DNA of 64,000 nt from Nitrospinaceae bacterium (GTDB taxonomy: Bacteria > Nitrospinota > Nitrospinia > Nitrospinales > Nitrospinaceae), in NCBI GenBank assembly GCA_024644405.1, contig JAHELC010000002.1, positions 186,001 through 250,000 on the forward strand. Reading direction: 5' to 3'. A program made the translations under genes and the position numbers. Positions within the stretch are counted from its first letter, which is position 1. Each line of letters opens with the position of its first letter. This document shows positions 56,257 to 64,000 of this stretch, one piece after another. The notes under the pieces are model-generated. The model was not told where the DNA came from, did not search any database, and was given only the letters and a program-made list of their open reading frames with translations.

Positions 56257-58689
56257 TTATTCGGCTGTGAAATTGAAGTAGAGCCACCACCCCTGCGTTA
56301 TCCCATCCGGGCCAATATCCCGTTCATCCAAACTGGTACAGTTATTAGTCCCACCGGGTAGAAGTTCACTCAGGGGTACGGAACCAACCGAAGGAGCATT
56401 GACTATAAATACATTTGCATCCGCTTCGCTAACAAATCCACGGAGCAATCCTTCGGTAAGATTGGTTGCCGGATCTCCCTCATAGGTGGCTGCAAATTGA
56501 ACGTCCTGCAAGGGTAGCGGATCTCCAAGAATATCTAGCGTTGTGCTCAGGGATGCGCTCACGAAGCACGGAGCCAACGGTACCTCAAGCGCCGGAGTAT
56601 ATGTGGGATTGGTGGTTTCGGGTATGGCGTTCAGGCATTCCCCTGTATTTTGATTCGAATAATTTACTGTGTGCGTTACTTCCCCTGTTGGGAATATGCA
56701 CGACGCGTCAAAAGCAGTGCACTGACCGGGGCCAAACTCCAATATTCCATCTGTAGCGCTCTGATCCAAAGATTCAAAAGCGATCAACAAACTGGAATCG
56801 AGAAAACCGTCGTGATCACTATCGCCATTCAGCAGGTTGTTGATGTTAGTATTCGTCTGATTCGTAACATCCGTGCAGAAAGTAGAAAATAATGAGACGA
56901 AAACATGTGGGTCACGTAGCGAAAGACTTGCGATTCTGAAAGGAGCTGCCTCATCAACCGATTCCAGCGTACAGGTAGAGCTACAGCCGTCACCACCAGT
57001 GGTATTCCCATCGTCGCATTCCTCGCCAGTGTCAGCTACACTATCTCCACAAAAAGGTAACGTGCAGGTGGTCCTGCAACTATCGGGTGTAGTGTCACTG
57101 TTTGCGGTACCATCGTCACATTCCTCTCCTGATTCAAGAACCCCGTTGCCGCACACTCCGGCTTCCGTCGTACAGATAGCGCTACAACCGTCGCCGTCGA
57201 TGTTGTTGCCATCGTCGCATTCCTCGCCTGATTCAAGTACCCCGTTGCCGCACACTCCGGCTTCCGTCGTACAGATAGCGCTACAACCGTCGCCGTCGAC
57301 ATTATTGCCATCGTCACACGTTTCTCCCGCAGTGGTATCGACGACGCCGTCACTACACACCGGAATTCGGACGGCTTGGAAATTAAAGTAGAACCACCAT
57401 CCCTGTGTCGTGCCATCCGGGCCGATATCCCGTACATCTAAAGTGGAATCAAAGCAGTTGCCAGTTCCTCCCGGCAGGAGCTGGCTCAGCGGTACGGTTC
57501 CAATAGATGGAGCATCCACTAAAAATGCGTCCGCATCCGCTTCACTGACAAAACCACGGAGTAATCCTTCAGCAAGATTGGTTGCCGGATCCCCCACATA
57601 GGTGGCCGCCAATTGAATACTCTGCAGCGGCAGTGGGATTCCCAGAAATTCCAGCGTGGTGTTCAGGAGGGAAGCGCTAACGAAGCAGGGAGCAACCGGC
57701 ACCGCAATTCCTGGAGAAAATACTTCGGGATTGGTGGTGCCGGGTATGGCGTTCAGGCATTCACCTGCATTTTCATTCAAATAGGTTAGTGTGTTGGATG
57801 TTGCTTCCGTTGGGAACTCACACACCGAAAGAGAACTGCACTGACCGGGGCCAAACTCCAATATGCCATCTGCAACGCTCTGATCCAAAGATTCAAAAGC
57901 GATCAACGGGCTGAAATCGAGAAAACCATCAAAATCATCGTCTTGAAATAAAGTATGAAGAATTGCTGAATTGACATCACTCGTAATATCCTGACAAAGA
58001 AATAATGCTGGTATAAATAAATGTGGGTCCGCCAGTGAAAGTACGTTGATTCTAAATAGAGTTCTGCCACCAATAACCAGTTCCGTCGTACAGCTCGCAC
58101 TGCAGCCGTCGCCGCTGGCGGTGTTGCCATCGTCACACTGCTCCCCGGAGTCGACCACACCATCGCCACAAACCGGGGTTTGGGTTCCTGCACATATAAT
58201 ACCGGACGCATCGAAGCCTACAACGAGCTGCCCTTCGGGACAAATCTGGCCAGCCAAAGCCTGGTTTCCGGAGACTCCCTGAGGCCCTGCCGGACCCGTC
58301 GCGCCGTCAGCTCCGGGGTTGCCATCCAAACCCGCCGGACCCGCCGGACCTGCCGGACCCGCTGGACCTGCCGGACCCGCTGGACCTGTCGGACCTGCCG
58401 GACCCGTTGGACCCGTCGGACCCGTCGGACCTGTGGGGCCTGCCGAACCCGTCGGACCTGTGGGGCCTGCCGGGCCTGTCGGTCCCGCCGGCCCGGTATC
58501 CCCCTTGGGACCCGGGGGACCCGCCAGCGGTTGAATGTTATCGATTTGTTGTTGTAAGTTTTCAAAAGGGGTGCCGGGAACAGTACCATCAGGCGTCAGG
58601 TTGATGTCGGCCGCCAAAGCGTTGCCGGAAAACAACCACACCATCATAAATCCTATGTCGATCAGCCAACGATTCCATTTCCTGTTCAT
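56257..58689 (-). CDS. Secreted collagen-like, Cys-rich protein with duplicated unknown domain
   Basis: An 810-residue exported protein. Signal peptide, then a short coiled segment ([16 protein letters not shown]). Next are about 27 Gly-X-Y triplets (mostly GPA and GPT), forming a collagen-like stalk. A Cys motif ([14 protein letters not shown]) leads to five Myxococcus-type DUF4215 Cys repeats ([16 protein letters not shown] type). A domain of about 200 residues occurs twice ([11 protein letters not shown]... and [11 protein letters not shown]...), each containing [10 protein letters not shown](V/A)(A/T)[11 protein letters not shown] and ending DIGPDG(T/I)TQGWW. Start at 58689 has GGGGGG. 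It follows a smaller collagen-like gene by 53 bases. Confidence 0.88.
57131..57315. repeat. 99-bp tandem duplication inside the collagen-like gene
   Basis: Two nearly identical 99-base units (period set by GATTCAAG at 57131 and 57230) encode consecutive 33-residue Cys-rich repeats. High DNA identity suggests recent duplication or unequal recombination. Confidence 0.85.
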
Positions 58690-58742
58690 ATTCCCCCCTG
58701 CCGACACATTTGATTAACTGATGCCTCTTCCTTTCCGCCAAA

Positions 58743-59276
58743 CTAAGAAGATGGGCTGTTAACAACAGTCCCGCACACCACGTTGCCGTCCGGCGAACTG
58801 AAACCGATAAGAAACTCGCCCGGTGGACACGTTCCAACCACACCCGCACCCGCTGGTCCCTGAGGACCGGGAGCACCACCCGTACCAGCAACACCATCAG
58901 TACCATTGGCTCCGGACGGACCCGTGGGACCTGCCGGTCCGGTCACACCCGCTGGACCTGTAGGACCCGCTGGACCCGCCGCGCCTGCCGGACCGGTCGC
59001 ACCCGCTGGACCCGCCGCGCCTGCCGGACCGGTCGCACCTGTGGGGCCTGCCGGCCCTGCCGGACCGGGATTACCTGTCGGACCCTTCGGACCTTGCGGA
59101 CCGGGCGTGGTCTCTATGGCTGTGATTTGATCTTGGAGTTGTTTAAAAGGTACTCCGGGAACTTTTCCCTCCGAAGTCAGAGGGATGCCAGGTCCGGCCG
59201 GCACTACAGCCGGTTGCCATGTTCCAAGGAATAAAAAGAAGAAAAGAATAAAAACCCAACTGAATGACTTTGTCAT
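58743..59276 (-). CDS. Small secreted collagen-like protein
   Basis: A 177-residue exported protein. Signal peptide ([14 protein letters not shown]), then [17 protein letters not shown], about 29 Gly-X-Y triplets, and a C-terminal [20 protein letters not shown]. The pre-collagen and post-collagen segments match those of the next gene, so the two are relatives and the larger one has extra Cys-rich modules. ATG at 59276 follows GAAGAGGGT; a longer frame upstream is less likely. Confidence 0.85.
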
Positions 59277-59392
59277 ACCCTCTTCGCCCTCCTCCATGAA
59301 GAGTGGTTTGGTTGGGAAGACAGGTTGGAATTTCAGAGATGGTGAGAAAGGCGAGCAACCCGTCCAATCCCTCAAAGTGATTGTTTTCCGTA

Positions 59393-61539: not shown

Positions 61540-61704
61540 ATTAACAGCCTGGCAGGACCCCTGAAACTCCTTGTAATTCGCCCACTTAAAAAATATTTTG
61601 TTTTCCATGTCAACCGATCTCTCCTCAGCGCGTTTTACTGGATAGTGGGCACAAAACCGTTACACTATTAACAACAGTTAAATGTGTTAAATAAGGAGAG
61701 GCAA

Positions 61705-62310
61705 ATGTTGAAGAAATCGATTTCAGGAGTTTTCAGTCTTTTGATACTAATCCCCGCAACCACCGCTCTGGCCGATGGCCCCGGCGGGGTTATCCAGCAG
61801 CGGCTGGATCATCGAGGCGATGTCATCGACCAGCGGCTGGACCAGAGGGGTTCCAATATCAATGACCGGCTGGACCGCCGGGGTTCCAACATCAACGACC
61901 GGTTGGACCAGCGCGGTTCCAACATCAACGACCGGTTGGACCAGCGCGGTTCCAACGTCAACGACCGGCTGGACCGCCGGGGTTCCAACATCAACGACCG
62001 GTTGGACAAGAGATCCCAACAGGCGGCGGAAAACGGACGACCCGGTTTGGCCAAGCGGCTTGATCGTAAAGGCGACCGGATTGAAAAACGCCTGGACCGC
62101 CGGGGTGACCGCGTTGAAAGACGCCTGGACCGCCGGGGTGATCGTGTTGAACGGCGTCTGGACCGCCGGGGCGACCGCGTTGAAAGACGGATGGATCGCC
62201 GGGGCGACCGGATTGAAAAACGCCATGACCGCCGGGGCGACCGCATCAACAAACGCATGGACCGCAAAGGCAAGCGCATCCATCGAAGATCGCACCGCCG
62301 CGGACATTAA
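61705..62310 (+). CDS. Secreted Arg/Asp-rich 11-residue-repeat protein
   Basis: A 201-residue exported protein. Signal peptide (LLILIPATTALA), then a mature region made of about 13 copies of an 11-residue unit. The first block reads RLD(Q/R)RGSNIND; after a short linker (QQAAENGRPGLAK) the second reads RLDRRGDRVER. An 11-residue period suits a right-handed coiled coil or long helix. The protein is strongly basic. No family recognised with certainty. GGAGAG ribosome binding site; followed by its own terminator and the ECF sigma operon. Confidence 0.88.
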   Translation: MLKKSISGVFSLLILIPATTALADGPGGVIQQRLDHRGDVIDQRLDQRGSNINDRLDRRGSNINDRLDQRGSNINDRLDQRGSNVNDRLDRRGSNINDRLDKRSQQAAENGRPGLAKRLDRKGDRIEKRLDRRGDRVERRLDRRGDRVERRLDRRGDRVERRMDRRGDRIEKRHDRRGDRINKRMDRKGKRIHRRSHRRGH

Positions 62311-62323
62311 GCGGAAACAAATG

Positions 62324-62357
62324 CCGGCGGGGGTTTGACCTCCGCCGGATTTTTTTT
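62324..62357 (+). terminator. Rho-independent terminator of the 11-residue-repeat gene
   Basis: CCGGCGGGGGT and ACCTCCGCCGG form an 11-bp stem with one G-U pair and a TTG loop, followed by ATTTTTTTT. Confidence 0.92.
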
Positions 62358-62383: not shown

Positions 62384-62929
62384 ATGGGGATGGAACGCCC
62401 GGCCATGGACGATTTTCTGGCATCTGTGGAACGCCAGGCCTTCCGCATGGCCGAGTTCGCCACCCGCAACGCCGACGAAGCATTGGACATCGTGCAGGAT
62501 GCCATGATAAGTTTGGTGAAACACTATTCCACGAAACCGGATACGGAATGGCGGCCGCTGTTCTTCCAGATCGTGCAGAACCGCATCCGTGACTGGCACC
62601 GCAAAAAATCCGTCCGGGACCGTTGGAACGGGATGCGCCAATTATGGCAAAGCCGGGAAATTGATGACGACCCGATCCAAAACCTGGCCGACCCCAAAGG
62701 CAAGACTCCCGGCGAACAGACAGCCCTCAAGGATTCCACGGCGGCATTGGATTCCGCACTGCAAACTTTGCCCTGGCGCCAGCAACAGGCGTTTCTCCTG
62801 CGGGCCTGGGAAGAGATGAGCGTGGCGGAAACCGCCCGCGCCATGAAATGTTCCGAGGGCTCGGTAAAAACACATTACTCCAGGGCCTTGCACACCCTTC
62901 GCAATTTACTGGAAGATCATTGGCCATGA
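62384..62929 (+). CDS. ECF-type RNA polymerase sigma factor
   Basis: A 181-residue sigma-70 family factor. Region 2 (FATRNADEALDIVQDAMISLVKH, WRPLFFQIVQNRIRDWHRKK) and region 4 (LPWRQQQAFLLRAWEEMSVAETARAMKCSEGSVKTHYSRAL) are clear. AGGAAAC precedes the ATG. The stop overlaps the next start (ATGA), a common sigma/anti-sigma arrangement. It probably reads a promoter of its own operon and perhaps the repeat gene before it. Confidence 0.93.
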   Translation: MGMERPAMDDFLASVERQAFRMAEFATRNADEALDIVQDAMISLVKHYSTKPDTEWRPLFFQIVQNRIRDWHRKKSVRDRWNGMRQLWQSREIDDDPIQNLADPKGKTPGEQTALKDSTAALDSALQTLPWRQQQAFLLRAWEEMSVAETARAMKCSEGSVKTHYSRALHTLRNLLEDHWP

Positions 62930-63282
62930 ACAGACCCGACGAAAAACAATTTATCGCCAACGTCAAAAAAGCGTTGGACCTCGGCACCGAGAATCTCGAT
63001 GCGGGCACGCAATCCAAGCTCACCCGCATCCGGCACAAGGCGTTGGACGCCGGCGAGCGCAAAGGGTTTGATATCCGGCAATGGTTCACCGTGCCGGTAG
63101 CCGGTTGGGCCACGGCCTGTCTCCTGGTGCTGGGGCTGGCGATTTATATGAATCAATCCAACGGGACGCTCCCCCCGTTGGAGGACATCGACCTGCTGGC
63201 CGCGGAAGACAACCTGGAGTTTTACGACGGTCTGGAATTCTATGCCTGGCTGACCGAGGAAGGCATCGATGCCGCCGGGTAA
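62926..63282 (+). CDS. Probable anti-sigma protein (DUF3619-like)
   Basis: A 118-residue single-pass membrane protein. The cytoplasmic helical N-terminus (FIANVKKALDLGTENL, LTRIRHKALDAGER) and TM (VAGWATACLLVLGLAIYM) match the DUF3619 layout. An acidic periplasmic tail follows (LEDIDLLAAEDNLEFYDGLEFY). Its start overlaps the sigma gene stop (ATGA). An anti-sigma role is inferred from topology and position. Confidence 0.75.
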   Translation: MNRPDEKQFIANVKKALDLGTENLDAGTQSKLTRIRHKALDAGERKGFDIRQWFTVPVAGWATACLLVLGLAIYMNQSNGTLPPLEDIDLLAAEDNLEFYDGLEFYAWLTEEGIDAAG

Positions 63283-63511
63283 AGCGCATCTGTGGAGCAC
63301 GGTACTTCTGCTGGGACTGCTCAATTCCCCGGGGTTGGCACAGGAACCGGGCCGGGAAGGAACCGAGGAGTCGGAAATGCCTTCGCTGGAACTCCTGGAA
63401 TTTCTGGGAGATTGGGAAACGGAAGACGGCGAGTGGATCGATCCGGAAGAAATGGAACAGATCGCGATTGCCGATCAGGAACAAGAGGTTGAAGATGAAC
63501 CACAAAAATAA
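63269..63511 (+). CDS. Small acidic secreted protein
   Basis: An 80-residue protein with a signal peptide (TVLLLGLLNSPGLA) and an acidic mature part (LELLEFLGDWETEDGEWIDPEE). It overlaps the anti-sigma gene by 14 bases and the DUF3106 gene by 17, so it is translationally coupled. Its charge is opposite to that of the next product. Function unknown. Confidence 0.75.
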   Translation: MPPGKAHLWSTVLLLGLLNSPGLAQEPGREGTEESEMPSLELLEFLGDWETEDGEWIDPEEMEQIAIADQEQEVEDEPQK

Positions 63512-64000
63512 ATTGTTAGCAGGAACAATCCTGCTGTTGCTGATCAGCCTGCCGGGCAGCGGCTGGGCGCAGGCACCGGGAACGCCCTGGGGCCAGTTGA
63601 GCCCGGATGAACAAAAGGTGCTCAAACCGTTTGCCGGAAAGTGGGATCAACTACCGCCGGACAGACAGTCGCGGCTGAAAAAAGGCGCCAACCGATGGCG
63701 CTCCCTCACACCGGACCAGCGCCGCAACATGAAACAGCGAATGAAGACCTGGAAACGAATGACGCCGCAACAGCGCCAGCATATCCGTAAAAGATTTGAT
63801 CGCTTCAGCAAACTGCCGCCGGAGAAACGCCGGGAATTGCGCCGCTCCCGGGAACGGTTTCAGAAGCTGCCGCCGGAACGCAGACGGCAGCTGCAAAAAC
63901 GCTGGCAACGCCTGCCGCCGGATAAAAGAAAACGGTTCCTGGATCGGCAACAACGCAGACAGTCGAGGCAGGACCGATTTCGCAATCGGACACCGCAACA
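63495..64000 (+). CDS. DUF3106 secreted basic repeat protein (3' end off window)
   Basis: An open frame from ATG 63495 runs off the right edge. Signal peptide (LLLISLPGSGWAQA), then repeats of the DUF3106 kind: (L/T)(P/T)P(D/E)xR...RW, for example PPDRQSRLKKGANRW, TPQQRQHIRKRF, LPPEKRRELRRS. The protein is very basic and helical. The order sigma, DUF3619, DUF3106 is known in other proteobacteria; here an acidic protein is inserted. The C-terminus is missing. Confidence 0.85.
   Translation, partial: MNHKNKLLAGTILLLLISLPGSGWAQAPGTPWGQLSPDEQKVLKPFAGKWDQLPPDRQSRLKKGANRWRSLTPDQRRNMKQRMKTWKRMTPQQRQHIRKRFDRFSKLPPEKRRELRRSRERFQKLPPERRRQLQKRWQRLPPDKRKRFLDRQQRRQSRQDRFRNRTPQ

Follow-up and report, generated by a model that had tools for sequence, protein, structure and literature searches.

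A predicted exported hendecad-repeat protein, probably a helical hairpin, is encoded directly before an ECF sigma factor gene in Nitrospinota and Gammaproteobacteria

Spy and CpxP are small, exported, basic, helical proteins under envelope-stress control, and alpha-synuclein is built on an 11-residue period with one glycine per repeat. In general, promoters recognized by ECF sigma factors carry an AAC box in the -35 element and a CGT box in the -10 element (PMC8103513). ECF41 sigma factors use the promoter TGTCACA-n16-CGTC, from which the sigma factor drives its neighbouring gene (PMC3426412).

The locus described here lies in a stretch of 64,000 nucleotides (the window) from a Nitrospinaceae bacterium whose genome comprises 2.98 Mb in 40 contigs. 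The window encodes a repeat protein, here called REP, directly before an ECF sigma factor operon, the position and stress-type setting that an earlier note on this DNA had given it. A strong intrinsic terminator separates REP from the sigma factor gene, which starts at 62384. The features of the locus are as follows.

61608 to 61615, + strand: -35 element TGTCAACC of the ECF-type promoter, conserved upstream of REP
61631 to 61637, + strand: -10 element CGTTTTA, 15 bp after the -35 element, conserved upstream of REP
61693 to 61701, + strand: Shine-Dalgarno-like sequence AAGGAGAGG
61705 to 62310, + strand: REP, predicted exported hendecad protein, probably a helical hairpin, 201 amino acids
61705 to 61773, + strand: REP signal peptide MLKKSISGVFSLLILIPATTALA, read from the sequence, the same type being kept in relatives
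61774 to 62037, + strand: REP N-arm, units RLDxRGSNIND, net charge about +1, AlphaFold2 helix 27-109
61999 to 62064, + strand: break or turn motif RLDKRSQQAAENGRPGLAKRLD, with Gly111 at the turn and the same spacing in all 23 members
62038 to 62307, + strand: REP C-arm, units RLDRRGDRVER, net charge about +23, AlphaFold2 helix 113-199
62324 to 62356, + strand: strong intrinsic terminator between REP and the sigma factor gene, the hairpin being conserved in 6/6 of the genus
62384 to 62929, + strand: ECF sigma factor, PRK09047-like by profile matches, 181 amino acids
62926 to 63282, + strand: probable membrane anti-sigma factor with one transmembrane segment and an acidic outer tail, weakly DUF3619-like
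63269 to 63511, + strand: small acidic exported protein of 80 amino acids, conserved in Nitrospinota operons
63495 to 64000, running beyond the window end, + strand: DUF3106 protein, exported, basic

Translation of REP gives a Sec-type signal peptide ending in ATTALA, in keeping with the secreted protein proposed earlier, and export is predicted on this basis. Thirteen recognizable hendecads follow, six N-terminal and seven C-terminal of a break. The two blocks described by the earlier note correspond to two 33-bp arrays detected by TRF (61834-62007, 5.3 copies, 88% match, and 62071-62265, 5.9 copies, 80% match). Its statement that the DNA repeats are near-identical holds best for the first block, as mean identity between units is 0.78 inside block 1 vs 0.71 inside block 2 and 0.54 across blocks. 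The highly basic character and regular aspartates noted before are evident in the mature protein (net charge about +24; 50 Arg, 28 Asp). Hydrophobic periodicity in both arms is maximal at 98-98.5 degrees per residue, that is 11 residues per three turns, and about zero at the heptad angle. This is the 11-residue helical period that had been anticipated, and the 11/3 periodicity of a right-handed hendecad coiled coil.

REP matched no Pfam or NCBIfam family above cut-off, and sequence searches of solved structures found none for it. A literature search found no paper on the family or on its repeat words. A PHROGs tape-measure match and Pfam matches to RDM3, phasin and DUF2884 were rejected as low-complexity resemblances, lying below cut-off where one exists. 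A curli-like β repeat (CsgB, E 0.054) was also rejected, because hydrophobic residues 4 and 7 apart indicate a helix and AlphaFold2 predicts one.

The promoter in front of REP can be written TGTCAACC, 15 (rarely 16) bases, CGTT, and lies 60 to 97 bp 5' of the REP start. It carries AAC in the -35 and CGT in the -10 element; in the whole-genome pattern search the window copy is G000:C32:247608-247637. Strict matches were found at 20 of the 25 loci of a first set (0.0015 expected per set), and at 23 when one or two mismatches were allowed. Both copies lacking the promoter are those that are not 5' of the sigma factor gene, and they provide a natural control. The promoter was found at 24 of the 35 loci of a second set, some of which had no detected promoter or sigma factor gene. 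Among 16 REP-carrying gammaproteobacterial genomes there were 18 exact matches, vs 2 for the reversed pattern; away from REP the pattern is rare. A literature search for TGTCAACC in a sigma factor context found no relevant paper. Regulation of REP by the neighbouring ECF sigma factor, which would act from this promoter, is well supported by these comparisons of sequence, and the promoter evidence answers the question, raised by the earlier note, of whether this sigma factor drives REP.

The same promoter may serve a short list of other genes. Of the 18 exact matches, seven lie away from REP. Lipoproteins of one type follow three of these (L225, L227, L230), and single matches stand before an exported protein predicted to be outer-membrane-like (L224) and before a small exported protein (L226); behind the remaining two there is no exported gene. 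In an Ectothiorhodospiraceae genome, matches precede a lipoprotein of the same type, a barrel-like exported protein and an exported protein that is small and basic; in one more genome an EF-hand-like exported protein lies behind a match. Pfam confirmed DUF4382 for both lipoproteins tested (L162, L227); the other labels are a reading of the sequences. As DUF4382-type lipoproteins stand behind the promoter in four gammaproteobacterial genomes (L162, L225, L227, L230), this ECF sigma factor is likely to have them as a second, conserved target. The literature search for DUF4382 found one paper, on archaeal glycoproteomics. The window's own genome has one further exact match, at G000:C1:208399 (L159), before a 459-residue exported protein. 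Promoter-like matches at G050:C6, G364:C22 and G618:C150 lack an exported gene directly downstream and were taken as chance.

The closest named relative in a scan of genome contigs is in a Nitrospinota MAG (L031). A 67-column profile built around the REP break (A2) matched 17 of 77 Nitrospinota genomes, all within one order, at least 8 of 250 genomes of the order of Lysobacter prati and at least 29 of 369 genomes of the class of an Ectothiorhodospiraceae MAG. By this profile the family is common to one order of Nitrospinota and, patchily, to Gammaproteobacteria. In the first set, REP is directly 5' of the same ECF sigma factor gene wherever the next gene is on the contig, followed mostly by genes for the anti-sigma factor and DUF3106. 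Three copies depart from this order: a second one in G006, which lies behind DUF3106, one in G052 that is unlinked, and one in G054 that is probably degraded. The second G006 copy (L041:3963-4544) is lysine-rich and has no promoter. In the second set a close relative of the sigma factor is behind REP at 23 of the 35 loci, and several of the rest have limited flanks.

Some relatives of the operon differ at the REP position. In family f4 (L088:3419-3832, L089:3868-4233) the slot is occupied by an exported 11-residue-repeat protein without glycine, with repeats of the RRDNRKEKIQE type, one hydrophobic residue per repeat and the same promoter upstream. In genus g4, loci L091-L100 have anti-sigma-like and DUF3106 genes with no adjoining ECF sigma factor or REP gene and no TGTCAACC promoter, and share an upstream stretch like CTTCGAGTCATATTTTCGGTTAATATGG. 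At L211, REP repeats run into ECF sigma region 4 in one open reading frame, which reflects either a fusion by deletion or a mistake in the MAG assembly.

The sigma factor matches Sigma70_r2 and Sigma70_r4_2 above cut-off and consists of regions 2 and 4 only. The putative anti-sigma frame overlaps the sigma factor stop codon, has one hydrophobic segment and matches DUF3619 weakly, below cut-off. No paper mentioning DUF3106 or DUF3619 was found in the literature search, and a sequence search of solved structures with DUF3106 gave nothing significant. In the window's genus a GC-rich hairpin follows the REP stop codon in all six cases, with a clear T-run in five; elsewhere, a terminator-like element was seen at two gammaproteobacterial loci, and most others have none. 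Since no second promoter of the TGTCAACC type was seen between REP and the sigma factor gene, the latter is probably transcribed by read-through past the terminator. Elsewhere in the window (56257-59375, minus strand) two adjoining exported proteins have collagen-like GPxGP repeats, the larger with repeated cysteine motifs as well.

The break between the two blocks is a motif of 22 residues with glycine at position 13 and flanking leucines 19 residues apart, found in 23/23 first-set members; its glycine is out of register with the repeat glycines. The structure prediction suggested in the earlier note gave long helices, interrupted at the glycine turn. AlphaFold2 models window REP as helices 27-109 and 113-199 joined in a helix-turn-helix at the break (pLDDT about 76-93 over most of the arm length), and interrupts the helix of the Lysobacter protein at residues 71-72, its turn glycine. 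Confidence was moderate for both members modelled (pTM 0.41 and 0.36). A Foldseek search against the PDB returned nothing significant.

In most members the arms on either side of the break are matched in length, to within a few residues. In 14 pure-repeat members of the first set, with arms of 33 to 90 residues, r = 0.96 and the difference is 3 residues or fewer in 11, five tailed members having been left out post hoc, after the data were seen. With all 19 single-hairpin members the correlation is 0.22, because those five bear extra C-terminal tails. Four proteins are double hairpins, and in three of them the lengths of N-arm and C-arm plus 9 residues add up to that of the middle stretch. Across 28 loci of the second set, a few mis-called open reading frames among them, r = 0.70 and Spearman 0.80, with a median difference of 2; permutation values for the match ignore kinship and so overstate its significance. 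Growth of the repeats in one half of the gene seems to be matched by growth in the other, which would be a testable case of protein structure limiting the number of repeats. The break motif, the modelled turn and the matched arms in two genome sets argue for an antiparallel hairpin, a fold that is well supported by this comparative evidence. REP thus probably folds as an antiparallel α-helical hairpin, not one continuous rod, with two arms that may pair with each other.

The arms differ in charge. Among 18 members tested, N-arms carry a net charge close to zero (-4 to +3) and C-arms one of +2 to +28. The same direction was found at 27 of 28 further loci; Lysobacter and its closest relatives show little asymmetry. 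The putative anti-sigma factor has an acidic outer tail (net -8 to -13), and Asp and Glu are abundant in the small exported partner protein. These charges would make charge-based feedback possible, and REP may act back through the acidic anti-sigma tail. Neither this asymmetry nor the turn motif, promoter or terminator figured in the earlier note.

From the frame, period, gene order, promoter, turn and arm matching, each well supported by computation, the reading we favour, and consider fairly probable, is that an autoregulated ECF envelope-response operon has REP as its chief product, an exported effector with a hairpin fold. The operon order would be REP, ECF sigma factor, membrane anti-sigma factor, in some cases the small acidic exported protein, and DUF3106. 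Once released by the anti-sigma factor, the sigma factor would start transcription from TGTCAACC-N15-CGTT before REP. In the genus of the window, transcription probably stops in most cases at the terminator behind REP, so that REP would be made in excess while read-through keeps sigma and anti-sigma factors low. REP would be exported via Sec to form an antiparallel hairpin with an 11/3 period and, for the window protein, a length of about 13 nm, one of its arms being neutral and the other strongly basic. It is likely to be an abundant effector in the periplasm, or possibly at the surface, and to bind an anionic partner in the envelope through its basic arm; it may also report back by docking on the acidic anti-sigma tail, as RseB does on RseA. 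We infer export, arm pairing, transcript ratio, ligand and feedback.

Other explanations fit parts of these data. Low-complexity 33-bp repeats keep several other frames open over long stretches, and REP might have been a spurious repeat-derived frame and no gene. The chance of this is negligible, as frame, signal peptide and turn are conserved in two phyla, the gene has a promoter and ribosome-binding site, and changes between relatives are mostly synonymous with an excess at third codon positions (for example, 80 vs 27 and 18). The frame is thus kept in relatives, a check proposed with the original observation, and REP is on comparative evidence a translated gene. The earlier suggestion of a right-handed coiled-coil rod stands as regards the helix and its period. 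One extended rod (a parallel oligomer), with the break a mere irregularity, would suit the clean 11/3 periodicity and the long predicted helices, but is improbable given a conserved turn whose glycine departs from the repeat register, helices broken there in both modelled members, and arms equal in length and unlike in charge; a simple rod is therefore not the preferred reading, the two blocks looking more like hairpin arms.

Two further readings concern function. REP might bind membranes or lipid as do apolipoproteins, alpha-synuclein or group 3 LEA proteins. In that case its 11-mer amphipathic helices would rest on a membrane, or shield one under stress, and the hairpin would not be stably paired. 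The Pfam apolipoprotein A1/A4/E match (PF01442, E 8.7e-12) and the period with one glycine per repeat speak for this, but the score is 45.6 bits against a cut-off of 90, the mature window protein has two hydrophobic residues per 11 and no aromatics, and lipid binding has no need of matched arms; we regard it as unlikely. It is also improbable that REP is solely a periplasmic sensor or co-regulator, binding the acidic anti-sigma tail and setting sigma release with no effector role. Its strict linkage to the sigma/anti-sigma pair and the opposite charges of C-arm and tail would agree with such a role, but anti-sigma and DUF3106 genes occur without REP in many genomes, arm length varies widely, and the strong promoter and terminator suggest that REP is made in excess.

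REP as an exported hairpin effector under its neighbouring sigma factor would represent an undescribed exported protein family to which a regulator and a promoter word can be assigned, together with a fold hypothesis and a short list of predicted regulon members. Lysobacter and other cultured Gammaproteobacteria would allow these predictions to be tested. A bolder and doubtful proposal is a new class of ECF envelope response, in which the chief product, a polycationic periplasmic hairpin with arms co-varying in 11-residue steps, docks its basic arm on the acidic anti-sigma tail and tunes its own sigma factor.

Compared with described systems, REP resembles Spy and CpxP in being small, basic, helical and, by prediction, exported; the LTXXQ (Spy/CpxP) profile matched neither REP nor its DUF3106 partner at E ≤ 1. 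With apolipoproteins A1/A4/E and other 11-mer amphipathic helix proteins it shares charged helices and the 11-residue period. However, REP is bacterial with a Sec-type signal, its hydrophobic stripe is very narrow, and it has a fixed central turn with equal arms of unlike charge. The ECF41 promoter is similar in a -35 element beginning TGTCA, a -10 element of the CGTC/CGTT kind and, as predicted for REP, a neighbouring gene as target. ECF41 differs in its fused C-terminal regulatory domain and COE-type neighbours, whereas the window sigma factor has 181 amino acids, a region 4 match ending at residue 174, a separate putative anti-sigma factor and TGTCAACC instead of TGTCACA. Operons of the RpoE-RseA-RseB type are alike in the order of ECF sigma factor and single-pass anti-sigma factor (putative at the REP locus), in an AAC/CGT-type promoter before the operon and in exported partner proteins. 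No RseB, DegS-type or cupin partner was seen in the REP operon, which differs in that it is led by the gene for a probable hendecad hairpin, behind the promoter TGTCAACC-N15-CGTT.
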